Origin: Deltaproteobacteria bacterium
GTDB lineage: Bacteria; Desulfobacterota; Dissulfuribacteria; Dissulfuribacterales; QOAL01
Reading direction: 5' to 3'
Length of the DNA: 43,039 bases
Assembly (NCBI GenBank): GCA_027067775.1
Contig: JAMOVK010000066.1
Span: forward strand, 1-43,039
Shown here: piece by piece, positions 431 through 19,700 of the stretch
Position numbering within the stretch: position 1 is the stretch's first letter
Layout of the letters: every line of letters begins with the position of its first letter
The notes under the pieces: model-generated
The model's input: only the letters and a program-made list of their open reading frames with translations
What the model was told of the DNA's origin: nothing
Databases searched by the model: none
Position numbers and translations under genes: made by a program

Positions 431-485
431 TTGCTTTAGGTAATGAAGTTCACAATCTTGTTTCATGAAAGAGCAGGGAGGAGAT

Positions 486-1373
486 ATGTCAGCAAGAATT
501 ATTAGTGGAGTCGAGATAGCAAAACAGATTAGGCAGGAGCTCAAGAAGGAAGTTGCAGAGCTCAAGGAGAAGCATGGTGTAATTCCTGGGCTTGTCACCA
601 TTCTGGTTGGTGAAAACCCCGCATCCGTTTCTTACGTGACTGCCAAACAGCGTACCGCCCATGAGCTTGGTTTCCACTCTATCCAAGATAATCAGCCCGA
701 GGATATATCAGAAGATGACCTGCTCAAGCTTATAGAAAAGTATAACAACGACAAAGACATACACGGGATACTCGTTCAGCTTCCCCTTCCGAAGCATGTA
801 GACGAGTCAAAGGTGCTCTATGCCATTTCCCCTGATAAGGATGTGGATGGTTTTCATCCAGTAAATGTAGGAAAGATGGTTATTGGAGAGCCGTGTTTTC
901 TGCCGTGTACTCCCCATGGGATCCTGGAGATGTTGATTCGTTCCGATGTTGAGACAAGTGGCGCAGAGGTAGTTGTGGTAGGGCGCAGCAACATTGTGGG
1001 GAAACCCATTGCCAACCTTATGCTTCAGAAGCGTCCTGGTGGAAATGCAACTGTAACTATATGCCACACTAGGACCAAAGATATGACCTTTCATACCAAG
1101 AGGGCAGACATACTCATCGTGGCAGCCGGCAGGCCAAAGGTAATCACAGCAGACATGGTAAAAGAAGGGGTTGTTGTCATAGACGTTGGAGTCAATCGTA
1201 TTGGAAAGACTCCAGAGGGTAAGGCCATCCTGTGCGGAGACGTGGATTTTGAGGCGATTAAAGAAAAGGCGGCAGCCATTACCCCTGTGCCTGGAGGGGT
1301 TGGTCCTATGACCATCACCATGCTTATGAAGAATACGGTCCAGGCTGCCAAGCAGTTTGCAGGCCTTGCCTAA
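486..1373 (+). CDS. folD: Bifunctional methylene-THF dehydrogenase / methenyl-THF cyclohydrolase FolD
   Basis: A 295-residue protein that interconverts formyl-, methenyl- and methylene-THF in the cytoplasm. Family landmarks are visible in order: YVTAKQR with the catalytic-lysine region, VQLPLPKHVDE, the DVDGFHPVN signature, PCTPHGILEML, the nucleotide-binding VVVGRSNIVGKP segment, GDVDF and the C-terminal ITPVPGGVGPMTITML block. I place the start at the ATG at 486, which has GGGAGGAGAT just upstream; an in-frame ATG at 465 lacks a comparable ribosome site. It stands between fhs and CO dehydrogenase, so here it serves the methyl branch of the acetyl-CoA pathway and not only one-carbon biosynthesis. 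Length is normal for the family. Confidence 0.97.
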   Translation: MSARIISGVEIAKQIRQELKKEVAELKEKHGVIPGLVTILVGENPASVSYVTAKQRTAHELGFHSIQDNQPEDISEDDLLKLIEKYNNDKDIHGILVQLPLPKHVDESKVLYAISPDKDVDGFHPVNVGKMVIGEPCFLPCTPHGILEMLIRSDVETSGAEVVVVGRSNIVGKPIANLMLQKRPGGNATVTICHTRTKDMTFHTKRADILIVAAGRPKVITADMVKEGVVVIDVGVNRIGKTPEGKAILCGDVDFEAIKEKAAAITPVPGGVGPMTITMLMKNTVQAAKQFAGLA

Positions 1374-3485: not shown

Positions 3486-6400
3486 ATGGCAAAAAGTGGT
3501 GCAATTATGGTCCTTGGAGGGGGAGTCGCAGGGGTTCAGACTGCGTTAGACCTTTCCGAGCTTGGCTACTATGTATATCTGGTGGAAAAAAAGGCGTCCA
3601 TTGGTGGGGTTATGGCCCAGTTGGACAAGACCTTTCCCACCAACGACTGTTCGTTGTGAATTCTTGCCCCCAAGCTTGTTGAGGCCGGTCGGTCTCCAAA
3701 CATTGAAATCCTCACAAATGCAAAACTTGAGGCCCTTGAGGGTAAGCCTGGCCAATTCACTGCAAAGGTCTATCAGGAACCAAGATACATAAATGAAGAT
3801 CTGTGTACAGCCTGCGGTATGTGCACCATGTACTGTCCTAGGCCTGTTGTAGATACCTATAACGAAAGGCTGGATATAACCAGGGCCCCTCACATAGATT
3901 ATGCCCAGGCAATACCTTCCAGTTACTACATCGACGCAAAGGCATGTCTGAGGGTCAACTACGAGACGTGTAACCTGTGTGCCCAGACCTGCACCGCTGG
4001 GGCCATTGATTTCAGCCAGCAGCCCAAGGAATTGGAACTAAAGGTCGGGGCGGTGGTGCTGACGCCTGGCTTTGGCCGTGTGGATGACGAGGTGCTTGAA
4101 AGGTTTGGTTACGGTCGTTTTCCAGATGTTTTGACTGCCTTTGAGTTTGAACGTCTTACCTGTGCATCAGGCCCTACAGAAGGACATATTGTAAGGCCAT
4201 CGGATAACCAGGTTCCCAAAAAGATAGCATTTCTCCAGTGCATAGGCTCAAGGGACGAGACCTGCGGTAACGGTTACTGCTCTTCTGTCTGCTGTATGTA
4301 TGCAGTGAAGGAGGCCTCTGTTGCAAAGGAACACGAACCCGATCTTGACATATCCATTTTCTTTATGGATGTAAGGACAATGGGCAAGGGCTTTGATGAG
4401 GCCAGAAAGCGCGCGCAGGAAAAATATGGAATAAATGTCATCAGGGCAAGGGTGCCAAGGGTGGATCAGGTGGATGGAAAGCTCGCGTTAACCTGGACCA
4501 CTGGAGATGGTGAGCATCACTCTGACCTGTTTGATATGGTGGTCTTGTCAGTGGGGCTTGAGTCTCCTGAAGACGCTGAAACCATTGCAAGAGTAACAGA
4601 TATAGAGCTAAATCATTACAACTTCTGCCGCACAAGTGTTGACTCCCCTCTTCTTTCATCAAGGGGCGGTGTGCTGGTGGCAGGTGCCTTTCAGGGGCCA
4701 AAGGATATCCCAGAGTCTGTTACCCAGGCCTCAGGTGCTGCTGCCATAGCCTCAGAGCTTCTGGCAGATGCAAGAAACAGCCAGACCGTAACTGTTACCT
4801 ATCCAGATGAAGACAAGGCACTGGAAGAGGAGGAGCCACGCATTGGTGTGTTTGTATGTCATTGCGGGGTTAACATTGCAGGTGTTGTAGATGTGAAGGC
4901 GGTTCGCGACTATGCAGGAACACTGCCTGGAGTTGTGCTATATGAAGACACCCTCTACTCCTGTTCCCAGGACGCCTTGAAATCCATTGCAGAAAAGATC
5001 AAAGAAAACCGCCTTAACAGGGTTGTCATATCTGCATGTTCTCCAAGAACCCATGAGCCTCTTTTTCAGGAAACTCTTCGTTCCATCGGTTTGAATCCTG
5101 CCTTGGTGGAAATGGCCAACATCAGGGATCAATGCGCATGGGTCCATGCCCAAGAGCCAGACAAGGCCACGGAAAAGGCAAAGGATCTTGTGCGTATGGC
5201 TGTGGCAAAGGCGCGGCTTCTGACCCCTTTGGACCAGCCTACTGTTGATGTAACCCCCTCTGCCTTGGTAATAGGTGGCGGTGCCGCAGGCATGTCTGCT
5301 GCCCTTTCCATTGCGGATCAGGGTTATAAGGTGGTCCTGGTTGAGAGAAGCAAAGAGCTTGGAGGAAATCTTAAGAGGCTGAAATGGACCTTGGATGGTC
5401 AGGATGCATCAAAGGTCCTTAAGGATATGATAAAGAAGGTGAAGGCCCACAAGAATATCCAGGTTTTTACCGGTTCACAGGTGGAGTCTGTGTCCGGCTA
5501 TGTTGGTAACTTTACCAGTGCTTTAAGCCGCCAAGGCAAGACGGAGATGATAAATCACGGTGTCATCGTCCTTGCCACTGGCGGGCGGGAATACAAGCCA
5601 AAGGGTTATGCCTACGGCGACAGTACAAGGATTGTTACTCAGCTTGAGCTTGAAGAGAAACTTGCAAGAGGGCGCGGCTTTTTAAGGAATGCCAGAAATG
5701 TCGTGATGATCCAGTGCGTTGGTTCAAGGGGTGATGACATGCAGCACTGTAGCAGGTTATGCTGCATACAGGCTGTTAAAAATGCACTTAAACTCAAAGA
5801 GCTAAAGCCAGAGCTTAACATATACATATTTTACAGGGATATGCGTACATACGGCTTCTATGAGGATCTTTACAGGGAGGCCAGAAAACAGGGGGTCAAA
5901 TTCATACGGTACACCCTGGACCGGAAGCCAGAGGTCATAAAGCAGTCTCGAGGTATCAAGGTCAGGGCCTTTGATGAATTGATAGGTGAAGATTTAGAGA
6001 TTCCTGCAAGCCTGGTGGTGCTGTCTGCAGGCATAGCCCCAGGGGAGAACGAGGAACTTTCAAAGATAATCAAGGCCCCGCTTACCTCTGAGGGATTTTT
6101 CCTAGAGGCCCATGCCAAGCTAAGGCCTGTAGAGGTTGCTGTTGATGGTGTATATCTTTGTGGTCTTGCCCACGGGCCAAAGAGCCTCGAAGAGTCTGTT
6201 GCTCAGGCCAAGGCAGCTGCCGCCAAGGCCACTATTCCCCTGGCAAAGGGCAAGGTAGCGGTGGCACCCATAGTCTCGAAGGTGGATCAAGATAAGTGTA
6301 TTGGTTGTGGAATCTGCGAAAGTCTTTGTCCCTTTAACGCAATTGTCCTTGAAAAGGTTGGCAAGAGGAAAAAGGCCAAGACCATTACCGCTTCATGCAA

Positions 6401-6521
6401 GGGTTGCGGTGTCTGTGCCTCTCATTGTCCAACAATTGCCATATCTATGGGTGGTTTTACAGATGAGGCAATAATGGCCCAGATACACGCCTTTTCTCCT
6501 GAAGGATGTGAGGAGGCCTAG
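3486..6521 (+). CDS. hdrA: Selenocysteine-containing HdrA-like flavoprotein (long form), in-frame UGA at 3657-3659
   Basis: A 1011-residue iron-sulfur flavoprotein that by family is the electron-bifurcating/confurcating hub of heterodisulfide-reductase-type complexes. The ATG at 3486 has a GGAG upstream. Codon 58 is TGA within [16 protein letters not shown]; the paralogue at 39878 has cysteine there. Residues 1-340 form an N-terminal half with an FAD GGGVAG motif, a [11 protein letters not shown] ferredoxin motif and a CNLCAQTC motif. From about 345 a canonical HdrA follows ([11 protein letters not shown]), then a second FAD site ([10 protein letters not shown]) and two C-terminal 4Fe-4S motifs ([22 protein letters not shown]). 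It sits between CODH and mvhD, before hdrC and metVF, as in the MetFV-Hdr-Mvh arrangement known from acetogens. Read without Sec, it would wrongly begin at 3819 and lose the first FAD domain. Confidence 0.93.
3657..3696 (+). promoter_or_regulatory. UGA(Sec) codon and SECIS-like hairpin in hdrA
   Basis: The in-frame TGA at 3657-3659 is followed after 21 nt by a hairpin: stem GAGGCC (3681-3686), loop GGTC (3687-3690), stem GGTCTC (3691-3696), with one G-U pair. Bacterial SECIS elements lie just 3' of the UGA and show G/GU in a small apical loop, as seen here. The stem is short, so the hairpin is less certain than the Sec codon itself. Confidence 0.7.
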
Positions 6522-6524
6522 GGC

Positions 6525-7328
6525 ATGGCACAGCAAAACGTAGTGAAAAAGGAGAGTGAAATGGCCCAGGAGGGTTTTGAGCCAAGAATACTGGGATTTT
6601 TCTGTCACTGGTGTTGTTATGCAGCAGCAGATTCGGCAGGTGTTTCAAGATATCAGTACCCCCCTAATGTGCGGGTGATAAGGGTCATGTGCACTGGCAG
6701 AATAGATGCCCGATTCATCCTTGAGGCCTTCAGATGTGGCGCAGATGGGGTCTTTACAGGTGGCTGACATCTGGGCGAATGTCATTACCAGTCTGGTAAT
6801 TACGAGGCAATGATAGTGGCTGAGACCTGCCGGCAGTTTCTGGCCGACTGCGGCATTAATCCAGAGCGTCTAGCCCTTGAATGGGCCTCTGCCGCTGAGG
6901 CTCCACGTTTTGTGGAGTTGATCACCGGCTACGTAAACAGCATAAAGGAAAAGGGGGAGATAGGAAGCGCTGAGGGCGAGGCTGACAGTGAGACAATCAA
7001 GAGAAGACTTGCTGCAGCAGTCAAGGCCGCTGAGGCCCGCAAGCCTCGCATCGCCCTTGGGAATCTGGCCAAGAGGCTTCACAAAGAGGGTGACTTTTCA
7101 AAAGAGGCAATAGAAAAAGGTGTTTCTTCAAAGATCCTTCCGGCCCTGAGGGCAGAAAGGATAAAGGAGGAACTCCTTATGCTTCTTGCCCAAGGTCCCA
7201 TGGATATGAAGGAGCTTTCAAAGGCCCTTTGGGCAGATGAGGGAGAGATTGAAAAGCCCCTTTCTCAGTTGGTTAAAAAGGGTGTGATTGAGGAAAAGGA
7301 CGGCAAATATTCACTTGCCGACAAGTGA
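6525..7328 (+). CDS. mvhD: Selenocysteine MvhD-family electron-transfer subunit with C-terminal winged-helix-like extension
   Basis: MvhD passes electrons to HdrA through a 2Fe-2S cluster. The gene reads through TGA at 6765-6767 (codon 81) in [16 protein letters not shown], where the family normally has GGCH..CHY..GN. The product is 267 residues, against about 140 for ordinary MvhD. N-terminal [12 protein letters not shown] and VMCTGRID motifs are as expected. The extra roughly 100 residues are charged and end in a segment (about 200-267: [16 protein letters not shown], then [12 protein letters not shown]) that looks like a winged helix. The start at 6525 has AGGAGG 8 nt upstream; an in-frame ATG at 6561 with AAGGAGAG is also credible and matches the shorter N-terminus of the paralogue at 42942. 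Three nucleotides separate it from hdrA. Confidence 0.92.
6765..6800 (+). promoter_or_regulatory. UGA(Sec) codon and SECIS-like hairpin in mvhD
   Basis: TGA at 6765-6767 is followed after 16 nt by a perfect stem ATTACC (6784-6789) / GGTAAT (6795-6800) with loop AGTCT, which contains the GU usual for bacterial SECIS loops. The spacing from UGA to the loop G is 24 nt. Confidence 0.8.
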
Positions 7329-7355: not shown

Positions 7356-7907
7356 ATGACTGTTCAAGCCGCAAAGCTAAATAGTGACTTTATAAAAGAT
7401 ATTGTTTCCTACCAGGGCTGCGAGACTGCATCCATGTGTTATGCATGCGGATCGTGCAGTGGGGTCTGCCCGGTAGAAAAGGTCGTTGATGATTTTGACC
7501 CAAGGAAGATTGTTCACATGGTTGGGCTGGGAATGGAAGATGCCCTTATGACCAGTGACATCATTTGGGCCTGCTCTCAGTGTCAAAGCTGCATTCCTGT
7601 TTGTCCGCAGAATGTTAGGTGTGCTGATATAATTAAGGCTCTTAGGGACGAGGCACTGAAGCGCAAGATGGTGGATCAGCAACGTCTTAAAGATCTTGGC
7701 CTTTTTGCAGTAGTGGATGCTGGTAAGTGTGTTGCCTGTCTTACCTGTGTGAGGCTTTGTCCTTTTGGTGCCCCATCAATAACTGAAGAGGGGTATGCAG
7801 TTATAAAACCGGAGCTGTGCCATGCCTGTGGTATTTGTGTGCTGGATTGTCCGGCACAGGCCATAGAACTGGCGCCATCTCTTGAGGCGAGGGGGGCACA
7901 ACAATGA
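7356..7907 (+). CDS. hdrC: HdrC-like iron-sulfur protein with extra C-terminal 2[4Fe-4S] ferredoxin domain
   Basis: A 183-residue cytoplasmic electron carrier. The first half has the HdrC pattern, CYACGSCSGVCPVE and CSQCQSCIPVCPQN (residues about 27-90). The second half adds two more ferredoxin motifs, CVACLTCVRLCPFG and CHACGICVLDCPA, making four predicted 4Fe-4S clusters. Classical HdrC is about this length but carries only two clusters. An AGGA lies before the ATG at 7356. Its stop overlaps the next start (ATGA at 7904), implying translational coupling. No HdrB with CCG domains is encoded beside it, so it probably wires HdrA/MvhD to MetVF and not to a disulfide-reducing site; that last point is inference. 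Confidence 0.85.
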   Translation: MTVQAAKLNSDFIKDIVSYQGCETASMCYACGSCSGVCPVEKVVDDFDPRKIVHMVGLGMEDALMTSDIIWACSQCQSCIPVCPQNVRCADIIKALRDEALKRKMVDQQRLKDLGLFAVVDAGKCVACLTCVRLCPFGAPSITEEGYAVIKPELCHACGICVLDCPAQAIELAPSLEARGAQQ

Positions 7908-8275
7908 GCAAGATTAAGGGGTTTTGTTGTAACTATACTTTAAGCGTTGACATAGAGGCCCTTATAAAGGAAGGGCTGGTTCCTGAAGATCTAGAAATAG
8001 AAAGACTCCCGTGTACTGGCAGGCTTGAGGTGCCCCAGTTGCTTGATGCGTTTTCTGACGGTGCCGAGGCGGTTTTTGTTGTTGGGTGCCAACTGGATAA
8101 ATGTCATAATCTGTCAGGAAGCTACAGGGCCTCAAAAAGGGTCAAGTATGCCAAAAGGATCCTTGAGGAATTGGATATCGATCCTGATAGGGTAGAGATG
8201 TTTTTTGCTGGCAGGGGAGAGACCGAGCCAGTTGTTGAAGCAGCAAGGATAATGGCCTCAAGGTCAAAGGGCTGA
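7904..8275 (+). CDS. Short MvhD-family (hydrogenase iron-sulfur subunit) protein
   Basis: A 123-residue protein with the MvhD/FlpD pattern: an N-terminal GFCCNYTLS stretch, LPCTGRLEVPQLLDAFSDGA, and VVGCQLDKCHNLSGSY, which matches the family's GC...CHY..GN segment with cysteine instead of Sec. It is a second, standard-length MvhD-type subunit within one operon. It overlaps hdrC by 4 nt and precedes metV. By position it probably belongs to the same Hdr-MetFV complex, perhaps as the contact to MetV. The N-terminal CC pair replaces the CxxC spacing seen in the Sec-containing copy, so cluster ligation may differ. Confidence 0.82.
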   Translation: MSKIKGFCCNYTLSVDIEALIKEGLVPEDLEIERLPCTGRLEVPQLLDAFSDGAEAVFVVGCQLDKCHNLSGSYRASKRVKYAKRILEELDIDPDRVEMFFAGRGETEPVVEAARIMASRSKG

Positions 8276-8318: not shown

Positions 8319-8987
8319 ATGATTATAGCAGAAAGAAAACCAATGAAAGAGCTGCTGGAGATGGTCTCTGATGTCAAGAGGCTTCTGATTGTAGGCTGCC
8401 GGGGTTGTGTGGCGGTCTGCTCTGCAGGGGGTGACAAGGAGGTTAGCATTCTGGCAGCCGCGCTAAGGCTAGGGATGAAAAAGGCTGGCAAGCAGATTGA
8501 AATAGATGAGGATACCCTGGTTCGCCAGTGCGATCCAGAGTACATAGATCCTCTTAACGATAGGGCATCTGATTATGATGCCGTATTGTCTATGGCCTGT
8601 GGGGTAGGGGTTAACTTTATAGCTGATCGTTGTCCTGATGTAAACGTTATGCCAGCCCTCAATACCACCTTTTATGGTGCAAATCTGTCGAGTGGAGAGT
8701 GGAAGGAGATGTGCGCGGGCTGTGGTGCATGCGTGCTTCATCTGACCGGAGGCCTGTGTCCAGTGGCCAGGTGTGCTAAAAGCCTTTCCAACGGACCTTG
8801 TGGGGGGTCACAGGGGGGCAGGTGTGAGATCAATCCGGATGTGGACTGCATTTGGCAGCAGATCTATGACAAGTTGTCCAGTCTGAACAGGAAGGAAGAA
8901 TTGAGACAGATCATGCCCATTCGCGACTGGACTACAGCAGGGCATGGGGGACCACGCCGGAGAATAAGGGAGGACTTGCTACCGTGA
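8319..8987 (+). CDS. metV: MetV-like zinc/iron-sulfur partner of methylene-THF reductase (MTHFR C-terminal domain family)
   Basis: A 222-residue cysteine-rich protein. CRGCVAVCSAGGDKEV lies near residue 28, then MACGVGVNF, and a dense cluster CAGCGACVLHLTGGLCPVARC...GPCGGS around residues 135-175. In acetogens MetV forms a complex with MetF and links it to electron donors. Here its stop overlaps the start of the MetF fusion (GTGA at 8984-8987), so the two should be made in equal amounts. Its position between the Hdr/Mvh genes and metF supports a role passing electrons from the Hdr module to the MetF flavin. The family assignment is firm; the electron path is inference from known complexes. 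Confidence 0.87.
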   Translation: MIIAERKPMKELLEMVSDVKRLLIVGCRGCVAVCSAGGDKEVSILAAALRLGMKKAGKQIEIDEDTLVRQCDPEYIDPLNDRASDYDAVLSMACGVGVNFIADRCPDVNVMPALNTTFYGANLSSGEWKEMCAGCGACVLHLTGGLCPVARCAKSLSNGPCGGSQGGRCEINPDVDCIWQQIYDKLSSLNRKEELRQIMPIRDWTTAGHGGPRRRIREDLLP

Positions 8988-11900
8988 TGGCAGGAAGCAA
9001 TCTTGAAAATGTACTTCGTTCTGGGACCTTTGCAGTCACAGGCGAGTTGGGGCCGCCTAAAAGTGGTGATATGGAAGTGGTTCGCAAAAAGGCACGCATT
9101 CTTAAGGGTCATGTAGATGCAGTAAATATTACAGATTGCCAGACGGCGATTGTCAGGATGTCAAGCCTTACTGCCGGACTTATAGCCCTGTCTGAAGGTG
9201 TGGAACCGGTTATGCAGATGACCTGTCGTGACCGTAACCGGATAGGCATGCAGGCAGACATTCTTGGTGCCTCTGCCCTTGGAATCAAGAATCTTCTTTG
9301 TCTGACTGGTGATCACCAGAAGTTTGGCAACCATCCCCAGTCAAAGGGTGTCTTTGATATGGATTCCATTCAGCTCCTTCAGATGGTCAAGGGGATGAGG
9401 GATGACAAAAAGTTCCAGTGTGGAGAAGATATAAAAAAGGCAGAGCCAAGACTGTTTCTTGGTTGTGCTGCAAACCCCTTTGCAGATCCTTTTGAGTTTC
9501 GTCCGGTGCGCTTGGCCAAAAAGGTGGAGGCAGGGGCCGATTTTGTTCAGACCCAAATTATCTACAATATTGAAAAGTTCAGGAAGTTCATGGAGATAGT
9601 TAGGGATCTGGGGCTTCATGAAAGATGTTTTATACTGGCAGGTGTTACGCCACCAAAGTCCCTTGGCATGGCTAGATACATGAAAAAATTCGTGCCTGGC
9701 CTTGATGTGACAGATGAAGTTATCCAGCGTCTGTCTGATGCTAAGGACCAGAAAGAGGAAGGGATTGATATCTGTGTTGATATAATAAATCAGGTTCGTG
9801 AAATCCCTGGGGTATCAGGTGTGCATGTAATGGCTATCGAGTGGGAAGAGGCCGTGCCGGAGATAGTGAAACGTGCCGGTCTTTCTGACAGGCCCGAGCC
9901 AACAGGCATAGAGCCTGTGCTTACCTCCACTGGTGCTATTGAGGAAGCTGTTGACAAGGCCCGCCAAGAGGCCAAAATCGAGCTTGAAGGTCAGCTTAAA
10001 AAGGCCAAGGCAGAGGCTCAGGCCACTAGAGATCTGCTGGCAAAGGAAAAAGAAAAGGTTGCCTCTGAGATATCAGGTCTCAAGAAGCAAATAGAGGAGG
10101 CAAAGAATATGGTGAGCCGCAAGGAGGCTGAAATCCGCAAACTTACCGAGGAGCTAAAAAAGGCCAAAGAGTCCATGGATGAATCGCAGGCGGTGAAGCC
10201 TACAGTCCAGGCCAAGGAGGCAGCGGTTGGTGTTTCTCCTTTACTAAGTGCCAGAGAACAACAGGTCCTTAATTCTCTAAATAAGGGTTTGGCTGCCTTA
10301 AAAGAGGTACTAGGGCTTGACGATGCTCAGTTTGAGGCAATGAGGCGTTTTCTTGAGGCTGAGTTCATGCTTCAGCTTGGTACCGCAGTAGTCCAGGCAG
10401 GGCCTTTGGAGACAGCAAAGGCAGAGTCTGAAGTGTCCAGGCCTGTGGTGGAAACACCCACTGTTGAGCCTGCCATGGAAGTTTCTGAAGACAAAAGGAC
10501 AGAACGTCCAAAGGAAGTGGTAAATCTGGTTGCAAAGGGCAATGTTGCCTTGCACAACAAGGATTATCCAAAGGCTGTAGAGGCCTTTAAAAAGGCCTTG
10601 GAGATAGCCTCTGATGACGAAAAGGCAAAAGAAGGCCTGGAACAGGCCAGGGAGGCCCTTGCCAAAGAGAAAGAGGCAGCAGACAAGGCAGTAAAGGTAA
10701 AGGAAGTGGAGGGGTTGCCACCCTGTCCCGAAGAGCTTGATCCTGAAGAGTGGAAACAGAAGTGGATTGTACGTTTTACTGCAAGGGGCAACGTGGCCCT
10801 TATGAAGGGTGATTATGAGGCAGCAAAAAGGGAATTTCAAAAGGCTCTAGAGCTTGATCCTGACTATGAAAAGGCCAAGGATGGACTTAGGCGGGCTGAG
10901 AACCAGGAGGATATTTTCGTACCTGACGTGGAACTAGGCCAAGAGGCGGTTGCTGCACCCAAGGCAGAAAAGGCTCCAGAGTCTCAAAAGCCGGAACCTG
11001 CAGCCGAAGTTAAACCGGAAGAAGAGACACCGCCCGAGGAAGAGGCAGTACCAGCCGAGGAAGAAAAGGAGGAAGTTGCAGAAAAGCCAGCTGCTCCACA
11101 ACCCAAGCCAAAGGTTGAGATCAGTGCACCAGCGGGAGAGGGTGTAAAAGACCTGTCCGTGGCGTCCTTGGCCAAGGACGAGCCTCCCCTTGAAGAAAGG
11201 GCCAAGGGCATACCAGAAGATGTTTACAAGGAACCGTGTACAGGTGTAATCCAAAGTGTCAGCATTGGGGATGGCGACAAGGCAATTACGGTTGGTGGTG
11301 AGACAGCCTTACCCTTTCATACATTTGAGGGTGACATTCCTAACATGCCAAGAACTGCCTATGAGGTGCTAGATGCTCCGCCTGAAGAGTGGCCAGAGTG
11401 CCTAGTGAGATACTATTCCGATGTTATAAACGATTCTGCAGCATGGGCGAAGAAGTGTGTCAGCGAGTTTGGTGCCGAGGCAATATGTCTGTCTCTTGAT
11501 TCCACCGATCCAAACGGACCAAACGTCTCATCAGCAGATGCTGCCCAGATTGCCAAGAAGGTTATTGAGGCGGTGGATGTGCCAATAATCCTTTGGGGAT
11601 GTGGAAACGCAGAGAAAGACACAGAGACCCTGCGCGAGATCACAAGTCTTATTGAGAATAGGAACGTATGTATAGGCCCTCTTACAGATGCCAACTATCG
11701 CACCCTTGGGGCAACAGCAATGGCCTTCCAGTATCCTGTAGTGGCATCCACTCCCATTGATGTAAATCTTGCCAAGCAGCTCAACATCTTGCTTGAGAAT
11801 CTTGGGGTGCATCTGGACCACATCCTTATGGATCCTTCTATTGGAGCTGTCGGTTACGGTTTGGAATATACGTATTCAGTCATGGAACGAATAAGGCTGG

Positions 11901-12145
11901 CAGCCCTGACCCAGCAGGATGAGAAACTTTCTCCGCCGATAGTTTGTAATCTTGGCCGTGAGGTATGGAAGGCCAAGGAGACAAGGCTTCCTACAGATGC
12001 AGAGTTAGGTGATCAGGAAAGAAGGGGTGTGCTAATGGAGGCCATAACAGCCTCTACCCTGCTTCTTGCCGGTGGAGAGCTAGCCATAATGAGACATCCA
12101 AAGGCAATCAATCTAACAAAGGTGTTGATTGATGGGATGCTTTAA
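8984..12145 (+). CDS. metF-acsD: Fusion: methylene-THF reductase (MetF) - coiled coil - TPR linker - corrinoid protein small subunit (AcsD/CdhD)
   Basis: One uninterrupted 1053-residue frame. Residues 1-300 are MetF, with TGELGPPKSGD, the QMTCRDRNR motif, LCLTGDH and FVQTQIIYN, reducing methylene-THF to methyl-THF. Residues about 315-400 are a Lys/Glu/Ala-rich predicted coiled coil. Two TPR-like repeats follow (GNVALHNKDYPKAVEAFKKAL near 514 and GNVALMKGDYEAAKREFQKAL near 603). Then comes a Pro/Glu-rich linker (about 650-735). Residues about 745-1053 are the corrinoid iron-sulfur protein small subunit: VGGETALPFHTFEGDIPN, LGVHLDHILMDPS, GYGLEYTYSVMERIRLAAL and MRHPKAINL. No separate acsD exists in the cluster, so this part must supply it. 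The start is GTG 8984 or ATG 8987, with AGGGAGG upstream. acsB and acsC follow. Confidence 0.9.
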   Translation: MMAGSNLENVLRSGTFAVTGELGPPKSGDMEVVRKKARILKGHVDAVNITDCQTAIVRMSSLTAGLIALSEGVEPVMQMTCRDRNRIGMQADILGASALGIKNLLCLTGDHQKFGNHPQSKGVFDMDSIQLLQMVKGMRDDKKFQCGEDIKKAEPRLFLGCAANPFADPFEFRPVRLAKKVEAGADFVQTQIIYNIEKFRKFMEIVRDLGLHERCFILAGVTPPKSLGMARYMKKFVPGLDVTDEVIQRLSDAKDQKEEGIDICVDIINQVREIPGVSGVHVMAIEWEEAVPEIVKRAGLSDRPEPTGIEPVLTSTGAIEEAVDKARQEAKIELEGQLKKAKAEAQATRDLLAKEKEKVASEISGLKKQIEEAKNMVSRKEAEIRKLTEELKKAKESMDESQAVKPTVQAKEAAVGVSPLLSAREQQVLNSLNKGLAALKEVLGLDDAQFEAMRRFLEAEFMLQLGTAVVQAGPLETAKAESEVSRPVVETPTVEPAMEVSEDKRTERPKEVVNLVAKGNVALHNKDYPKAVEAFKKALEIASDDEKAKEGLEQAREALAKEKEAADKAVKVKEVEGLPPCPEELDPEEWKQKWIVRFTARGNVALMKGDYEAAKREFQKALELDPDYEKAKDGLRRAENQEDIFVPDVELGQEAVAAPKAEKAPESQKPEPAAEVKPEEETPPEEEAVPAEEEKEEVAEKPAAPQPKPKVEISAPAGEGVKDLSVASLAKDEPPLEERAKGIPEDVYKEPCTGVIQSVSIGDGDKAITVGGETALPFHTFEGDIPNMPRTAYEVLDAPPEEWPECLVRYYSDVINDSAAWAKKCVSEFGAEAICLSLDSTDPNGPNVSSADAAQIAKKVIEAVDVPIILWGCGNAEKDTETLREITSLIENRNVCIGPLTDANYRTLGATAMAFQYPVVASTPIDVNLAKQLNILLENLGVHLDHILMDPSIGAVGYGLEYTYSVMERIRLAALTQQDEKLSPPIVCNLGREVWKAKETRLPTDAELGDQERRGVLMEAITASTLLLAGGELAIMRHPKAINLTKVLIDGML

Positions 12146-12202: not shown

Positions 12203-14410
12203 ATGTCCAAAATTATCTGTTCAGCAGCAATCAGAGGTGCCCACAAGATTGTGGATATGGCCGAAGAAAAGTATGAGGAGGCCCTCAAAAAATATGGGCC
12301 TGAGCAAGAGGTGGCCTTTCCAAATACGGCATATTACCTGCCCATCATATACAGCATGCTTGGTGCACCTATTAAACAGCTTGGGGATATGAAGGATATC
12401 TTTCAAGAGTGCAGAAAGCTTTTGCCTCCTCCAGTCAGTGATCATGTATGGTTGCCCTACCTGGCTCCGGCCCTGGATGCTGGCATGGCGACCTTTTTTG
12501 CTGAGGAAATGTTCGAGGCCATAAGATATGTTGACGATCCCCAGTTTTATACCAAGACAGAGGATCCACCTGCCAGTGGTAATTACTGGCTTGGAGCTGC
12601 TGACGACATTATATTCAGAAAAAGGGGCGTTGAGTTTGTTGATGGGACCGCCCCTGGTTTTGCAGCCATTCTTGGTTCTCCAGCTGATGCGCAAGAGGCT
12701 GAAAAGATTGCCACTGAGCTGCAGGAAAAGAATCTTTATGTCTTTTTCCATGATCAGACAGACGGGATCTATTTTCCAGACCAGCTTTTAAAGAGAAACA
12801 TACAAATTGGCTGGTCAACCAGACTGGTTCCCTTTGGCCCCACCTACACATCAGCCGTTTTTGCAATCGGTTTTGCCTGTCGCGTTGCCTTGGCCTTTGG
12901 CGGAATCCAGCCCGGAGACTACAAGGCCAACCTTCTCTATAACAAGGATCGTACATTTGCCTTTGTCATTGCCTTTGGACCGGTTTCTGATGAATGGTAT
13001 GCCAACGCCGCAGGTGCCATAAACTGGGGGTTCCCAACCATATCTGACTGGGATATTCCAGAGGTGCTTCCAAGTGGTATATGTACTTACGAACATGTTG
13101 TCAGCAGGGTTCCCCATGACGAGATAGTGCAGAAGGCCATAGAGGTCAGGGGGCTAAAGGTTACCGTTTCAAAGATAGACATCCCTGTTTCCTACGGCCC
13201 TGCCTTTGAAGGTGAACGTGTCAGAAAAGACGATCTCTATCTGGAGTGCGGTGGTGGACGCACCCTAGGCGTTGAGGTCCTTATTTCCAAGGAGATGGAT
13301 GAGGTCGAGGATGGCAAGATAATTGTGGAAGGCCCTGAGATGGACGAGGTTGAAGAGGGAGCAAAACTTCCACTTGCCATACTTGTGGAGGTTGCAGGGC
13401 GTCAGATGCAGCCGGACTTTGAGCCGATTCTCGAGCGCCAGTTTCATCATCTTATCAACTATGCCCAGGGGATAATGCACATTGGCCAGAGAAACATCAT
13501 GTGGCTTAGGGTCAGCAAGAGCGCCATAGAAAAAGGTTTCAAGTTCAAGCACATAGGAAAGATACTTCATGGAAAGCTTCACCAGGACTTTGGTGCAATT
13601 GTGGACAAGGTGCAGGTAAAGATCTATACGGAAGAGGAAAAGGTCAAGGAGGTCCTTGAGCTTGCCAAAAAGGTTTATGCTGCAAGGGATGAGCGTCTTG
13701 GTTCCATGACTGATGAGAGCGAGGAGGTCTTTTACTCCTGCACCCTTTGCCAGTCTTTTGCGCCAAGCCATGTCTGTGTTATCACGCCGGAGCGTGTGGG
13801 CATGTGTGGCGCATACAACTGGCTGGATGGCAAGGCATCCTATGAGATAAATCCCACAGGCCCAAATCAACCTATCGAAAAGGGCAAATGCATTGATGAG
13901 AATCTTGGCCAGTGGGAGGGAATCAACGAGTTTGTAAAACAGGCCTCCCGTGGCAAGGTGGAAAGGGTAAGCGCCTACTCACTCATGGTAGACCCAATGA
14001 CAGCCTGCGGGTGTTTTGAGTGTATTGCCACCATGTTGCCCATGTGTAACGGGATAATGATCGTTAACCGCGACTATATGGGCATGACTCCAAGTGGAAT
14101 GAAGTTTACCACCTTGGCAGGAATGGTAGGTGGCGGTCAGGTTACCCCAGGTTTTCTTGGCGTTTCCAAGCACTTTATCTGTTCAAGAAAATTCATGAAG
14201 GCAGAAGGCGGGCTGAAAAGGGTGGTCTGGATGCCAAAGATGCTCAAGGAAGAGCTTAAGGAACGACTCCAGGAAAGGGCTGAAGAAATAGGGGTTCCCA
14301 ACCTCCTTGATCTGATTGCAGATGAAGAGGTCGGGATTTCTGAGGATGAGGTTCTGAAGTTCTTGCAGGAAAAGGGTCATCCAGCACTTTCCATGGACAG
14401 CGTTGTTTAA
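12203..14410 (+). CDS. acsB: CO-methylating acetyl-CoA synthase (AcsB)
   Basis: A 735-residue bacterial-type acetyl-CoA synthase that condenses CO, the corrinoid-borne methyl group and CoA at the Ni-Ni-[4Fe-4S] A-cluster. The cluster ligands are visible: C513, C516, C525 and C535 (YSCTLCQSFAPSHVC... GMCGA), then C602 and C604 in ACGCFEC. The 67-residue gap between C535 and C602 equals that between C528 and C595 in the well-studied Moorella enzyme. The N-terminal CODH-contact domain (residues about 1-310) is present, so this is the full bacterial form and not the shorter archaeal CdhC. AGAGGG precedes the ATG. It lies between the AcsD fusion and acsC. Confidence 0.97.
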   Translation: MSKIICSAAIRGAHKIVDMAEEKYEEALKKYGPEQEVAFPNTAYYLPIIYSMLGAPIKQLGDMKDIFQECRKLLPPPVSDHVWLPYLAPALDAGMATFFAEEMFEAIRYVDDPQFYTKTEDPPASGNYWLGAADDIIFRKRGVEFVDGTAPGFAAILGSPADAQEAEKIATELQEKNLYVFFHDQTDGIYFPDQLLKRNIQIGWSTRLVPFGPTYTSAVFAIGFACRVALAFGGIQPGDYKANLLYNKDRTFAFVIAFGPVSDEWYANAAGAINWGFPTISDWDIPEVLPSGICTYEHVVSRVPHDEIVQKAIEVRGLKVTVSKIDIPVSYGPAFEGERVRKDDLYLECGGGRTLGVEVLISKEMDEVEDGKIIVEGPEMDEVEEGAKLPLAILVEVAGRQMQPDFEPILERQFHHLINYAQGIMHIGQRNIMWLRVSKSAIEKGFKFKHIGKILHGKLHQDFGAIVDKVQVKIYTEEEKVKEVLELAKKVYAARDERLGSMTDESEEVFYSCTLCQSFAPSHVCVITPERVGMCGAYNWLDGKASYEINPTGPNQPIEKGKCIDENLGQWEGINEFVKQASRGKVERVSAYSLMVDPMTACGCFECIATMLPMCNGIMIVNRDYMGMTPSGMKFTTLAGMVGGGQVTPGFLGVSKHFICSRKFMKAEGGLKRVVWMPKMLKEELKERLQERAEEIGVPNLLDLIADEEVGISEDEVLKFLQEKGHPALSMDSVV

Positions 14411-14425
14411 CGAGGAGATAAAATC

Positions 14426-15781
14426 ATGGGTCTGACAGGAATTGAAATCCTGAAGATGCTCCCCAAAAAGAATTGCGGGGAATGTGGTGTGCCTACTTGC
14501 CTGGCCTTTGCCATGAAGGTGGCAGCGGGTCAGGAGGATATAGGGGCATGTCCCTATGTTTCCGACGAGGTGAAGGAAAAGGTTGGAGAGGCCAGTGCTC
14601 CTCCTATCCGAACCATTGTGCTGGGAAGCGGGGACAACAAGTTTCAAGTTGGAGGCGAAACCTGCCTCTACAGACACGAGAAGAGGTTTGAACATCCTAC
14701 CGGCCTGGCCTTCCTGATAACCACCGGAATGGATGACAGCGAAGTTTCTGACCGTCTTGCCCGTTTTAACGGCCTTAGATACGACAGGGTGGGTGTTGAG
14801 TTAAAGGCCGATCTTGTGGCAGTTAAGGATGAATCGGGAGACGAAGGGGCATTCAGGTCCTTGGTGGAAAAGGTTCGTCAAGACTGTCCAGATGCGGCCA
14901 TTATCCTTATTAGTGATAATGCTGGTGTCCTTAAGGCAGGCGCAGAGGCCTGTGGCGAACACAAACCCCTTCTTTATGCTGCAACACCTGACAACGTTGA
15001 CGACATGGTGAGCCTGGCCAAGCAGGTAGAGTGTCCTCTTGCGGTGAAGGGTGGAACCATTGGCGAGACGGCAGAACTTTCTGAAAAGATTCAAGGAGAG
15101 GGGCTCAAGGACCTGGTTCTAGATACAGGTGCAAGAACTGTTAAGGCAGTCTTTGAGGATCAGGTGGTGTGCAGAAGGGCTGCCGTTAAGCACAAGTATA
15201 AGCCCCTTGGTTTTCCAACCATTACCTTTCCCTGCGAGATGACCGATGACAGCCTCACCGAGGCAATGATTACCTCGGTGCTCATTGCCAAGTATGCAGG
15301 AATCTGTGTCCTTTCGGATATCCAGGGTGACGTTCTTTTCCCACTTTTGCTTGAACGTCTCAACATCTTTACCGATCCCCAGAGGCCCATGGTCGTCCAG
15401 GAAGACATATATCCAATCAACGGACCTGATGAAAATTCTCCTGTACTGATTACCTGTAACTTCTCGCTGACCTACTTTATTGTTTCAGGGGAAATCGAAG
15501 GCTCTAAGGTGCCTTCGTGGCTGCTTATAAAGGATACAGAGGGCCTTTCAGTCCTGACTGCATGGGCAGCTGGCAAGTTTAGCGCGGATCTTATTGCCCA
15601 ATTTGTCAAAAAGTGTGGAATAGAAGAGAAAGTCAAACACAGAAGCCTAATTATTCCAGGCTACCTGGCCTCTATTAAAGGTGAACTGGAAGAAGAGTTA
15701 CCTGACTGGAAGATTCAGATTGGACCGAGGGAGGCAAGCCACCTTCCCTCCTATCTTAAGAGCTGGCAGCCTGAGGGCTGA
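14426..15781 (+). CDS. acsC: Corrinoid iron-sulfur protein large (gamma) subunit
   Basis: A 451-residue protein carrying the 4Fe-4S reactivation cluster and, with AcsD, the cobamide that takes the methyl group from methyl-THF to AcsB. The N-terminal cluster motif is complete: C17, C20, C25 and C42 (NCGECGVPTCLAFAM...GACP). The remainder is the TIM-barrel plus C-terminal cobamide domain usual for AcsC/CdhE, with GGETCLYRHEKRFEHPT near residue 75 and a C-terminal LIIPGYLASIKGELEEELP segment. GAGGAGATAA precedes the ATG. The length is typical. Its partner small subunit is found only as the C-terminal domain of the preceding MetF fusion. Confidence 0.96.
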   Translation: MGLTGIEILKMLPKKNCGECGVPTCLAFAMKVAAGQEDIGACPYVSDEVKEKVGEASAPPIRTIVLGSGDNKFQVGGETCLYRHEKRFEHPTGLAFLITTGMDDSEVSDRLARFNGLRYDRVGVELKADLVAVKDESGDEGAFRSLVEKVRQDCPDAAIILISDNAGVLKAGAEACGEHKPLLYAATPDNVDDMVSLAKQVECPLAVKGGTIGETAELSEKIQGEGLKDLVLDTGARTVKAVFEDQVVCRRAAVKHKYKPLGFPTITFPCEMTDDSLTEAMITSVLIAKYAGICVLSDIQGDVLFPLLLERLNIFTDPQRPMVVQEDIYPINGPDENSPVLITCNFSLTYFIVSGEIEGSKVPSWLLIKDTEGLSVLTAWAAGKFSADLIAQFVKKCGIEEKVKHRSLIIPGYLASIKGELEEELPDWKIQIGPREASHLPSYLKSWQPEG

Positions 15782-15807: not shown

Positions 15808-16698
15808 ATGTACGTTCAATGTATAGCTGAAAGCATCAATATAATGGGAAAGCGTACAGGAGGGGCCATGCGGGCCAGGGATCCAAGGCCTATCGTAGAG
15901 ATGGCCCATGAAGAGGTGGCCTTTGGAGGAGACTATCTTGATCTCAACATCGGTCCTGCCAGGAAGGACGGCACCGAGCTTATGCCCTGGATTGTGAGAG
16001 TCGTTGAGGAGGTAACGGATTGCCCCCTTTCCCTTGATACTACCAATGCAGATGCCTTGATTGCCGGTATGCGTGCTGCAAAAAATCCAAAGCAACACAT
16101 AATGAACTCCATATCCCTGCAGCCAGAGAGGATGAAAAAGCTGATTCCTGTTGCAGCCGAAACAGGTTGCTACGTGGTGGGACTGCTTTGGGGAGTAGAT
16201 GGCATGCCAAGGGATTCCAACGAGAGGGCGGCAATGACCGTGGACCTCACAATGGCCATGAATGAGGCTGGCATTCCTAATGAAAAGATACTCATAGACC
16301 CGATTGCAACACCAATTACACTGGGATCCGAGCAGGTTATGAGCGGTCTGGAGTTTATGTCCATGCTTCCTGATATTGCTCCAGGGGTCAAGAGCACGGT
16401 GGGCTTGTCCAACGTGTCAAATGGTGTAGAGGCACACCTTCGCCCCTACCTCAACAGGGCATATCTTGCCATGCTCATGAAAGTGGGTATCTGGTCTGCC
16501 ATTGTTGATGCCTATGACCAGGAACTTATGGAACTGGCCCATGGAGAGCGGCCAGAGCTGGTGAAACTGGTTCATGACATAATGGATGGGAACGAACCTG
16601 ATCCGTCAACCTTGTCAGACAAGGAAACGGAATATTACAAAACCACCAGGGTGCTTATGGGCAAGACCATCTTTTCAGAGTCCTGGCTGGAACTTTAA
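15808..16698 (+). CDS. acsE: Methyl-THF:corrinoid iron-sulfur protein methyltransferase (AcsE)
   Basis: A 296-residue pterin-binding TIM-barrel enzyme that moves the methyl group of methyl-THF to Co(I) of AcsC/AcsD. Recognisable segments are ESINIMGKRTGGAM, DYLDLNIGPAR with the conserved Asp, CPLSLDTTNADALIAG, MNSISLQPERM, ILIDPIATPI and STVGLSNVSNG. It is about 30 residues longer than the roughly 262-residue Moorella protein, the excess lying in a C-terminal tail (after about residue 260). GAGGAAGAG lies before the ATG. It ends the ACS gene run; a hairpin with a short T run follows. Confidence 0.95.
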   Translation: MYVQCIAESINIMGKRTGGAMRARDPRPIVEMAHEEVAFGGDYLDLNIGPARKDGTELMPWIVRVVEEVTDCPLSLDTTNADALIAGMRAAKNPKQHIMNSISLQPERMKKLIPVAAETGCYVVGLLWGVDGMPRDSNERAAMTVDLTMAMNEAGIPNEKILIDPIATPITLGSEQVMSGLEFMSMLPDIAPGVKSTVGLSNVSNGVEAHLRPYLNRAYLAMLMKVGIWSAIVDAYDQELMELAHGERPELVKLVHDIMDGNEPDPSTLSDKETEYYKTTRVLMGKTIFSESWLEL

Positions 16699-16768: not shown

Positions 16769-19700
16769 ATGTCAGAGAAAATCAAGATTACAGTAGACGG
16801 TAAGGAGATAGAGGCCCAAAAGGGCCAGACCATTCTCCAGGCTGCCAAGGGTGCCGGCATAGAGATTCCCACCCTGTGTCATCTTGAGGGAGCGGCAGAT
16901 TCCAGCACTCCCTGCCTAATTTGTATGGTTGATGTTGAAGGAAAGGGCAGGGTAAGGGCCTGCAACACGCCTGCTGAGGATGGTCAAGTAATAGCAGTAC
17001 ATTCAAAGGAACTGGACGCTTTTAGAAAAGAGAGACTCACTCTACTTGCCGAGAGTCACTACGGTGACTGCAGGGCACCTTGCAACCTTACATGTCCTGG
17101 GGGCATAAATGTCCAAGGCTATGTAAACCTCATCGCCAAGGGCGAATACAAGGCGGCCCTTATGCTTATAAAGGAGAAAAATCCCCTTCCTATCTCAGTC
17201 GGCAGGGTCTGTCCACGTTTTTGTGAGACCAGGTGCAGGAGGATACTTCTTGACGAGCCAATAGCAATAAATCACCTGAAACGTTTTGTGGCAGACTATG
17301 CTTCAGAGGTGGGTTTCAGGGATGATGTGGTTGGCAAACCCACTGGTAAGAGGGTTGCTATAATCGGAGGAGGGCCTGCCGGACTGTCGTGTGCACATTT
17401 TTTAAGAAAACAGGGGCATGATGTAACAATCTTTGAGGCAGAGGAAAAGCTTGGCGGACTCCTAAGATACGGAATACCAGGTTATAAGCTGCCAAACAAG
17501 GAGGTGGATAGAGAGGTCCAGAATATCCTGAATCTTGGAGTCCATGTAAAGCTCAAAAAGAAGTGGGGCGAAGATTTCACCATTCAGGATCTCAAAGACC
17601 AGGGTTTCGATGCGGTATTTATTGCGGTTGGTCTGTCGAGACAAAAGAAGCTGGAGATAGAGGGCTCGGAGCTTGCCATCTGTGGTCTAAAGTTTCTCAA
17701 GGAAGTTAACAAGGGTCAAAGGCCGAAGATAGGCGAGGAGGTGCTTATTGTAGGCGGTGGCGATATTGCTGTGGACGCTGCCAGAAGCGCCAGACGTCTT
17801 GGAGCAAAAAGTGTCACGGTAATATATCCCCGTTCACGTGTGGAGCTGCCTGCCCATCAGCGTGAAATAGAAGAGGCCGAAAAGGAAGGTGTACAGTTCT
17901 TCCTTATGGCCACTCCATTGAAAATTGTTGAGGAAGACGAAAAACTCAAGGTAGAGATGGCAAGAACCATTCTTGATGAGCCTGACAAAAGGGGCATTCG
18001 TCATCCCATTCCCATGCCTGGCTCTCGTCTTTACTGGACAGGTGATACGGTGATTTCGGCACTTGGCCAGGAAGGGGACCCGACCATACAAAGCTTTGGT
18101 GAGATTGAGGCTACCATAAAGCTCACTCCAAGAAAGACCATCAAGACCCATCCCTCCACAATGAAGACAAGCGTTGAGGGAGTATACGCAGGTGGTGATG
18201 CTGCTACAGGCTCCAGAACTGTTATACAGGCGGTTGCTGGGGGCAGGAGGGCAGCAGAATCCATCCACGAGTACCTCATGAGTGAAAAGGCGGGAATCGC
18301 AGAGGCCAGGTTCAACTTTACAAAGGGCAAGCGGTTCGAGGATGTGGACATGCACAACTTTGATGGCTACTCCATCAAGCTCAACGAGGTCATGCCCTCC
18401 AGGCCTCCAGAGAGGCGAATCGGGGATTTTGATGAAACCAACCTTGGGTTTTCAGAACAGATGGCAGTAAGGGAGGCCAAAAGGTGTCTGCAGTGCGGAT
18501 GTCTTGGCCTGTCCAAGTGTACCTACAGGGAGCTTTGTGTTGATTACAAAGTAAAGGCCAATGTGGCAAGGACAAGGCTCAAGTATCCTGTAGATAGAAG
18601 CCATCCCTTTATTGTTATTGACGCCAACAAGTGTATAGGATGTACAAGGTGTGAGAGAAGTTGTCAGTATGGTGCCCTTGAGCTTGACATAAAACGTGAT
18701 GAAAAGACCCAGCTAATCCAGGAAGTCTCCATCAAGCTCAACGACAGCTGTGTGTCCTGTGGGGCCTGCGTTGACGCCTGTCCAACTGGCACTTTGTCAA
18801 AACAGGATCTTGTCATTCCCATGTTCCCAGGCCAGCTTACCAGTGTCAAGAGTGTTTGCACCTACTGTGGAACAGGCTGCAGCCTGGATGTGGTGACCAA
18901 GTATGGAGCCATACTGGAGATAAAGGCCGATAGGAAAAGACCACCAAACTGGGGCCAGCTTTGTGTCAAGGGCAGGTTTGGCTACACCTTTTATCGTCAT
19001 GAAGACAGGCTTCGTAGTCCCCTGGTCAGGGATACCATAGACGAGCCCTTCAGAGAGGTGGACTGGGACGAGGCCCTAAGGATGGTAGCCGCCCGTTTTG
19101 GTGCTATTAAGGACAACTTTGGTTCAGATTCCCTGGGTATTCTGGCCTCTTCCAGGTGTACAAATGAGGAGAACTATCTGCTTCAGAAACTGGCGCGAGC
19201 GGCCTGGGGCACCAACAATGTGGACAACTGCGCCCGGGTCTGACACGCTCCATCTGTCAGCGGTCTGCTGGCAACACTTGGAAGCGGCGCAGCCACAACA
19301 CCCTTTGAGCAGATTGTTGGCACAGACTGTCTGCTGATTTGTGGTTCCAACACCACTGAGGCACATCCAATAGTCGGCCTCAAGGTAAAGGAGGCCGCCA
19401 GCAGAGGAACCGACCTGATAGTTATTGACCCTCGCAGAACCGAGGTGGCTGCCATCGCTGAGAAACAGCAGGACGGCATATGGCTGAGGGTGGCTCCAGG
19501 GGGTAACATCCCCCTTCTAAACTCTATTCTGTATTGCATTATAGAAGAGGGATTGGTGGATGAGAAATTCATAGCGGAAAGGACAGAACAGTTTGATGCC
19601 GTAAAGAAACATATCCAGGATTATCCACCAGAAAAGGTGAAACAGATTACAGAGGTGGATCCTGAACTGGTCAGGCAGGCGGCAAGAAAATATGCATTGG

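Follow-up and report, generated by a model that had tools for sequence, protein, structure and literature searches.

Genes of the window and domains of the fused protein

The window, a stretch of 43,039 nucleotides, carries on its forward strand folD (465..1373; Pfam) and the CO dehydrogenase gene cooS/acsA (1407..3404; PF03063, E 4.5e-166), followed by a group of Hdr- and MvhD-like genes upstream of metV: an hdrA-like gene (3486..6521; Pfam and read-through), an mvhD-like gene with a C-terminal winged-helix-like part (6525..7328), a gene for an HdrC-like ferredoxin-type Fe-S protein (7356..7907; Pfam) and mvhD (7904..8275; PF02662), which makes two MvhD-like genes. The annotated ORFs of the window's operon include no HdrB. 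The gene for the MTHFR partner subunit, metV (8319..8987; PF12225, 122.8 bits), overlaps with its end (8987) the start of a metF-acsD fusion gene (8984..12145), beyond which lie those for acetyl-CoA synthase (acsB, 12203..14410; Pfam, NCBIfam), the CFeSP large subunit (acsC, 14426..15781; NF003195, 608.7 bits against a cutoff of 306), the methyltransferase AcsE (acsE, 15808..16698; Pfam, NCBIfam) and a formate dehydrogenase (fdhA, 16769..20884) with a NuoG/flavin-oxidoreductase-like part and a molybdopterin part, all on the same strand. The order metV, metF-acsD, acsB, acsC, acsE is the one given in an earlier note on this DNA. In-frame TGA codons, passed over in that note, interrupt the hdrA-like gene (3657-3659), the mvhD-like gene (6765-6767) and fdhA (19241-19243); these are presumably read through as selenocysteine.

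The fusion gene is a single unbroken frame of 1053 codons from a GTG at 8984, or 1052 from an ATG at 8987, and is recognised by its ORF, by Pfam and NCBIfam and by homologous fusions in other genomes. Its N-terminal MTHFR (MetF) domain (residues 7-299, 9002..9880) matches PF02219 with 134.6 bits (E 5.7e-39) and, by Foldseek, MTHFR structures. The AlphaFold2 model places after this barrel a long charged helix, a predicted coiled coil (residues 316-399, 9929..10180), a helical hairpin (residues 421-465, 10244..10378, with helices at 423-443 and 447-465), and two TPR units (residues 510-567 and 587-639, 10511..10900), matched by Pfam near residues 517-545 and 600-628 (E 2.8e-13) and mostly modelled with pLDDT above 90. 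The hairpin had not been mentioned in the earlier note. A spacer rich in Glu, Pro, Ala and Lys (residues 640-735, 10901..11188) follows, predicted to be disordered and for the greater part modelled with pLDDT about 30, and leads to a second barrel, the AcsD (CFeSP small subunit) domain (residues 746-1053, 11219..12142). This part contains a CdhD domain (Pfam; residues 759-988, E 4.9e-40), matches the ACS/CODH delta subunit over residues 746-1052 (PRK04452.1-2, 372.9 bits against a cutoff of 280) and 2h9a_B (E 1.3e-89), and is superposed by Foldseek on 4djd_D, 2h9a_B and 9fzy_E with TMt 0.87-0.92; against the narrower exception model WLP_AcsD it scores 308, below the cutoff of 430. The joining of MetF and AcsD in one chain, as previously proposed, is thus borne out by frame, domain models and two predicted barrels alike.

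In the MTHFR barrel, E21, D110 and Q191 are invariant across 45 fusions, and the GD and TQ motifs line up with human MTHFR. We take these three residues to be the equivalents of the active-site residues Glu28, Asp120 and Gln183 of the Escherichia coli enzyme. The fusion scores 64 against TIGR00676, the NAD(P)H MTHFR equivalog, far under the cutoff of 293.7, which would be consistent with a reductase that depends on ferredoxin and not on NADH. The sequence evidence supports a MetV-dependent type for this part, since metV overlaps the fusion gene and, where the operon is broken up, has no metF neighbour.

Only two places in the window's genome belong to the CdhD family, the fusion and AcsC, so a second acsD that would do the work, whose absence had been claimed from the locus, can be rejected. 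A free AcsD made from an internal start is likewise rejected: between residues 608 and 780, where the AcsD boundary lies, no start codon in frame is preceded by a ribosome-binding site, and the sole strong combination of the two sits within the long helix, at residues 376-377.

Distribution and origin of the fusion

The metF-acsD fusion is real, old and widely conserved in anaerobic, mostly sulfur-metabolising bacteria. In a search for joint chains across the phylum, as the earlier note had suggested, AcsD was found within a frame of at least 720 aa in at least 43 of 395 sampled genomes of the phylum, including 18 of 18 from the window's own order; MetF and AcsD have been confirmed within a single frame in more than 60 loci, and a MetV domain was detected in all 12 genomes tested. 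In the sampled phylum titled Chloroflexi (that of L080), by comparison, all 27 AcsD copies are unfused, in frames of 304-381 aa.

That an assembly error joined two genes, or that the gene is a pseudogene, is hardly credible. The window does come from a 165-contig assembly, but the architecture is repeated in those independent loci, and closed genomes carry it, among them the long-read hybrid assembly of the isolate Dissulfurimicrobium hydrothermale Sh68 (PMC8780430), and a sequencing error, which the note had named as a refuting condition, is excluded. The gene is moreover under strong purifying selection, with dN of 0.03-0.16 in both domains against 0.24-0.39 in the linker.

On the AcsD tree the fusion has a single origin: fused and secondarily split genomes lie on one side of one branch (SH-aLRT 100). 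The tree of the MTHFR domain, which has long branches and poor resolution, is by itself no proof of this. Taking into account that the unfused lineage L129 has the same gene order as the fused operons, the fusion would go back to one event, the loss of the stop codon that separated adjacent metF and acsD genes in an ancestor shared by several Desulfobacterota-related lineages. Later, in Desulfobulbales, metV and acsE moved elsewhere in the genome and the fusion was kept. Gene order is for this reason a weak argument for one large assembly of Hdr proteins, MetV, AcsB, AcsC, AcsE and CODH, and that part of the note's reasoning carries little weight. In the related genomes G096 and G335, metF and acsD are separate again, and the covalent link is therefore dispensable.

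The tether, its helical tag and the proposed assembly

Tethers range from 106 to 462 aa across the fusions, that of the window having 444 residues. The coiled coil and TPR linker previously described is predicted in the window's chain, but it is not conserved, the tethers of other lineages being Ala-rich or Glu/Lys/Pro-rich. The sole part common to these otherwise variable tethers is a conserved helical tag of about 40-45 aa, which in the window is the hairpin at residues 421-465 and which occurs at one place per genome. It scores 37.6-40.8 bits, whereas pattern-preserving shuffles gave means of 3.3-5.8 and one maximum of 33.1 in about 2000, and mere hydrophobic patterning is thus rejected. 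In the split genomes, the tag remains on AcsD and is also present on CO dehydrogenase (CooS), with no other strong match. The likeness to the CooS extension spans about 38 residues; a first tag profile, with all lineages mixed, matched CooS weakly (E 0.019), and when a single CooS tag was compared directly with a single AcsD tag, the score of 66 against a mean of 42 (sd 7.9, maximum 73) did not decide the matter.

These features can probably be best understood if the fusion forms a tethered MetVF-CFeSP assembly in which the tag is the assembly helix. MetV would bind the N-terminal barrel and provide electrons, and the C-terminal barrel would form the CFeSP with AcsC. Because MetF and AcsD would be made 1:1 in a single chain and held close together, methyl-THF would be set free near the CFeSP, where AcsE would transfer its methyl group to cobalt. 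Most of the tether would be interchangeable spacer, and the tag an element for self-association or for docking to a CODH/ACS component. We infer activity of both halves, their physical assembly, channelling, a binding partner for the tag and a kinetic gain. A further, tentative and rather doubtful step would be that the methyl branch and the CODH/ACS core form one tag-organised assembly, the tags of AcsD and CooS linking CFeSP to CODH through paired helices in the split, Thermodesulfobacteria-type lineage.

Tethering may bring little benefit where methyl-THF diffuses freely, and it could be argued that the fusion chiefly sets the stoichiometry and co-expression of two enzymes, with a tether that contributes to neither catalysis nor assembly. 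The wide variation of the tether in length and composition and the occurrence of fission both suit such an explanation, as does Desulfobulbales, where the fusion would still ensure a 1:1 ratio though metV and acsE have moved. We nevertheless consider it unlikely, since a conserved tag persists within the variable tethers and expression balance leaves unexplained the matching tags of CooS and AcsD in split genomes. Even less probable is post-translational cleavage of the chain into short-tailed MetF and AcsD, the fusion then existing at the gene level only: the long spacer at residues 640-735, predicted to be disordered, would offer room for it, but no cleavage site is evident, spacer length and composition differ between lineages, and a conserved tag inside the tether would serve little purpose.

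A natural covalent link between the maker of methyl-THF and a subunit of the methyl acceptor, present in a cultivated species, makes physical assembly in the Wood-Ljungdahl pathway directly testable, and the tag, itself short, is a candidate for an element that keeps CO2-fixing enzymes together. The fusion also affects pathway reconstructions: literature searches found it nowhere described, and the genome papers found overlook it, that on D. hydrothermale naming two other loci as MTHFR and listing no CFeSP subunit (PMC8780430).

Comparison with known systems

A MetVF-CFeSP contact is not established in the literature found; a search for CFeSP cryo-EM papers returned none, nor was a solved structure related to MetV found. 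Sporomusa ovata has separate genes, and its purified MetVF (140 kDa) was free of other proteins; the preparation contained AcsC and AcsD, native PAGE placing AcsD in a different, 1-MDa band (PMC9430772). The MetVF of this organism binds its Hdr partners weakly.

The MetVF/Hdr-type methylene-THF reductases of the acetogens Clostridium ljungdahlii, S. ovata and Moorella thermoacetica (PMC8760232, PMC9430772) resemble the window's system in their MTHFR-barrel MetF with an adjoining MetV and in the HdrA-like, MvhD and Fe-S genes upstream, but the MetF of the window bears in addition a 444-residue tether and AcsD. With regard to AcsCD (2h9a, 4djd, 9fzy), the last 308 residues of the fusion align with the whole of AcsD, with 38-47% identity and the same fold, and acsC is the second gene downstream of the fusion; AcsD is there a free chain of 310-323 aa, whereas in the fusion it forms the C-terminal end of MetF. 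The bifunctional homocysteine S-methyltransferase/MTHFR (PRK08645) offers a precedent for an MTHFR barrel joined to a methyl-transfer protein, although its partner and methyl acceptor differ, and the window's protein scores 217 bits against that model's cutoff of 453.

Architecture and reality of the fused chain

The fusion gene at 8984-12145 is one uninterrupted frame of 1053 residues from the GTG at 8984, or 1052 from the ATG at 8987, its start overlapping the end of metV at 8987. By Pfam, residues 7-299 are an MTHFR domain and residues 759-988 belong to the CODH/ACS delta subunit family, with TPRs between them near residues 517-545 and 600-628. The NCBIfam delta subunit match (residues 746-1052) scores above the PRK04452.1-2 cutoff. 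The AlphaFold2 model, built from an alignment of 45 fusions, contains an N-terminal and a C-terminal barrel, a helix (316-399), a helical hairpin (423-443/447-465), TPR helices (510-567 and 587-639) and a disordered stretch (~640-735); with a mean pLDDT of 75 and a pTM of 0.45, it does not fix the mutual placement of these parts. Foldseek matches the N-terminal part to MTHFRs and the C-terminal part to the CFeSP small subunits 4djd, 2h9a and 9fzy. The description of a MetF-AcsD chain in the earlier note, made from the sequence alone, was thus right. Its claim that the locus has no other acsD also holds, and extends to the genome (99.97% complete), which has two CdhD-family places, the fusion gene and acsC. 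MTHFR domains occur three times, in the fusion and in frames of 644 and 538 aa, the latter bearing its own MetV-like domain.

An assembly artefact is rejected on the strength of other loci, an isolate genome and purifying selection. The search of other genomes that the earlier note had suggested gives more than 60 loci with both domains in a single frame. Among the matches listed, at least 43 of the 395 sampled genomes of the phylum have AcsD in a frame of at least 720 aa (G024, a genome with a different fusion, being excluded), among them 18/18 genomes of the window's own order. Contiguity in long reads, also proposed there, is confirmed by the isolate Dissulfurimicrobium hydrothermale Sh68, a hybrid nanopore and Illumina genome (PMC8780430), in whose single contig of 2,025,450 bases (G097) the fusion is one 1004-codon frame. 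Strong purifying selection acts on the MTHFR and AcsD domains alike, with dN of 0.03-0.16 in both against 0.24-0.39 in the linker, dS being mostly saturated.

Elsewhere in the window, three genes carry in-frame TGA codons, and SelB is present in the genome. In the hdrA-like gene (3486-6521), the TGA at 3657-3659 is read through (DCSLU-ILAPKL), and selenocysteine is probably conserved there, since the open frames of relatives likewise start at about this point. The mvhD-like gene (6525-7328; TGA 6765-6767, FTGGUHLGECHY) has a C-terminal winged-helix-like part. The formate dehydrogenase gene (16769-20884), interrupted by a TGA at 19241-19243 with a weak SECIS_3 match at 19238-19296, gives one 1371-aa chain whose front half is NuoG/flavin-oxidoreductase-like.

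Origin, splitting and dispersal

At locus L129, separate metV, metF, acsD, acsB, acsC and acsE genes stand in the order of the fusion operon; its MetF ends in PRPRL, about 70 bases ahead of acsD, and the tether of the fusions starts with the equivalent PRP. Loss of the stop codon between adjacent metF and acsD genes is the straightforward explanation for the fusion. The AcsD tree shows a single origin, with a branch (SH-aLRT 100) that separates 25 fused and two secondarily split sequences from 12 unfused ones; the MTHFR tree, with long branches, is less clear. None of the 27 AcsD copies found in 26 of 151 genomes from the phylum of locus L080 (titled Chloroflexi) is fused (frames of 304-381 aa), nor is that of the L083 genome (titled Actinobacteria; 329 aa). 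One genome with the fusion also has a second AcsD of unfused type on a 7974-base contig (L130, G389:C81), which is either contamination or a second copy of the pathway.

Two genomes branching within the fused clade, G096 (a single contig of 1,634,377 bases) and G335, encode MetF and AcsD separately; MetF stops a few residues after YPRP, and about 100 residues of the former tether remain on AcsD.

In Desulfobulbales-type loci, the fusion is flanked by cooS and acsB, with metV and acsE not nearby. Four such genomes have a distant metV beside HdrC-like and MvhD genes, with no adjoining metF, so that the fused MTHFR is likely the partner of MetV; acsE lies at yet another place. In G188, which we take to be Desulfurivibrio alkaliphilus AHT2, the fusion is at ~990 kb, metV at ~1915 kb and acsE at ~2309 kb. 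Thus, the covalent link has outlasted the gene cluster.

The tether and its helical tag

The tether ranges from 106 to 462 residues and is, depending on lineage, short and Glu/Lys/Pro-rich, Ala-rich, or long with a coiled coil and TPRs. The coiled coil and TPR linker of the earlier note, present in the window's fusion, is therefore mainly one order's variant. The single conserved island is the helical hairpin at 421-465, in which L429, G435 and L439 do not vary across 45 sequences. When ten whole genomes were searched, this tag turned up at one place per genome, inside the fusion gene, except for one weak match (E 0.03).

The Thermodesulfobacteria-type tether helix is shorter and only loosely similar. 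Its profile, constructed without G096 and G335, detects the AcsD extension of these split genomes (E about 1e-9); an N-terminal extension of their CO dehydrogenase, CooS, is detected as well (E 3e-9 and 1e-8). Six-frame searches gave these two strong places per genome, the third match being weak (E 0.036 and 0.075), and the real tag scores above shuffles that preserve the hydrophobic pattern. The tag on AcsD and CooS was either copied or converged; in the simplest functional reading of these sequences, the proteins bearing it would associate.

Other joins occur among the same proteins. AcsC and AcsE form one chain in both split genomes (L116 3631-5958, 776 aa; L117 3461-5863, 801 aa). G024 encodes an AcsD-CooS chain of 1123 aa with a Pro/Ala-rich linker (L127 5315-8683), separate metV and metF genes lying upstream. 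Several unfused AcsD (L122-L126, L134) carry an Ala/Lys-rich C-terminal extension of ~210 residues, with a similar short motif (roughly SELDxxLExxNxxxxR) at its end. Because different fusions occur within this one set, AcsD, CooS, AcsC, AcsE and MetF are probably neighbours at work. Adjoining one short-tether fusion, a CooS-like ORF of 493 aa (L118 11009-12487; 31% identity over the C-terminal part) looks degenerate or repurposed.

Proposed function and known systems

No paper naming a MetF-AcsD fusion was found among the open-access papers searched. The D. hydrothermale paper assigns the pathway MTHFR to LGS26_08700 and LGS26_08025, numbers well away from those of the acs genes (around LGS26_01905-01950); its pathway passage names no CFeSP subunit (PMC8780430). 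The Thermosulfurimonas dismutans paper gives MTHFR as TDIS_1006, three numbers ahead of acsE (TDIS_1009), and nowhere uses "fused" or "fusion"; a paper on a Desulfobulbus epibiont reports that metV is missing. The fusion is real and conserved, joins known protein families and is apparently undescribed so far; the tag findings lift its interest above that of an ordinary gene fusion.

No start codon with a ribosome site was found near the AcsD boundary in the fusion gene, which suggests that AcsD would not be made separately from it. In the established biochemistry, MetVF reduces methylene-THF; AcsE passes the methyl group of methyl-THF to the AcsCD cobalt, and AcsB then uses it. On a single chain, MetF and AcsD are necessarily 1:1, AcsE remaining a third partner. 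The analysis shows the architecture of the fusion, its conservation, its single origin and where the tag occurs; its activity, assembly and kinetic gain are inferred. A point against the proposal comes from Sporomusa ovata, where purified MetVF contained no other protein and the AcsD present in the preparation migrated in a native band of its own (PMC9430772).
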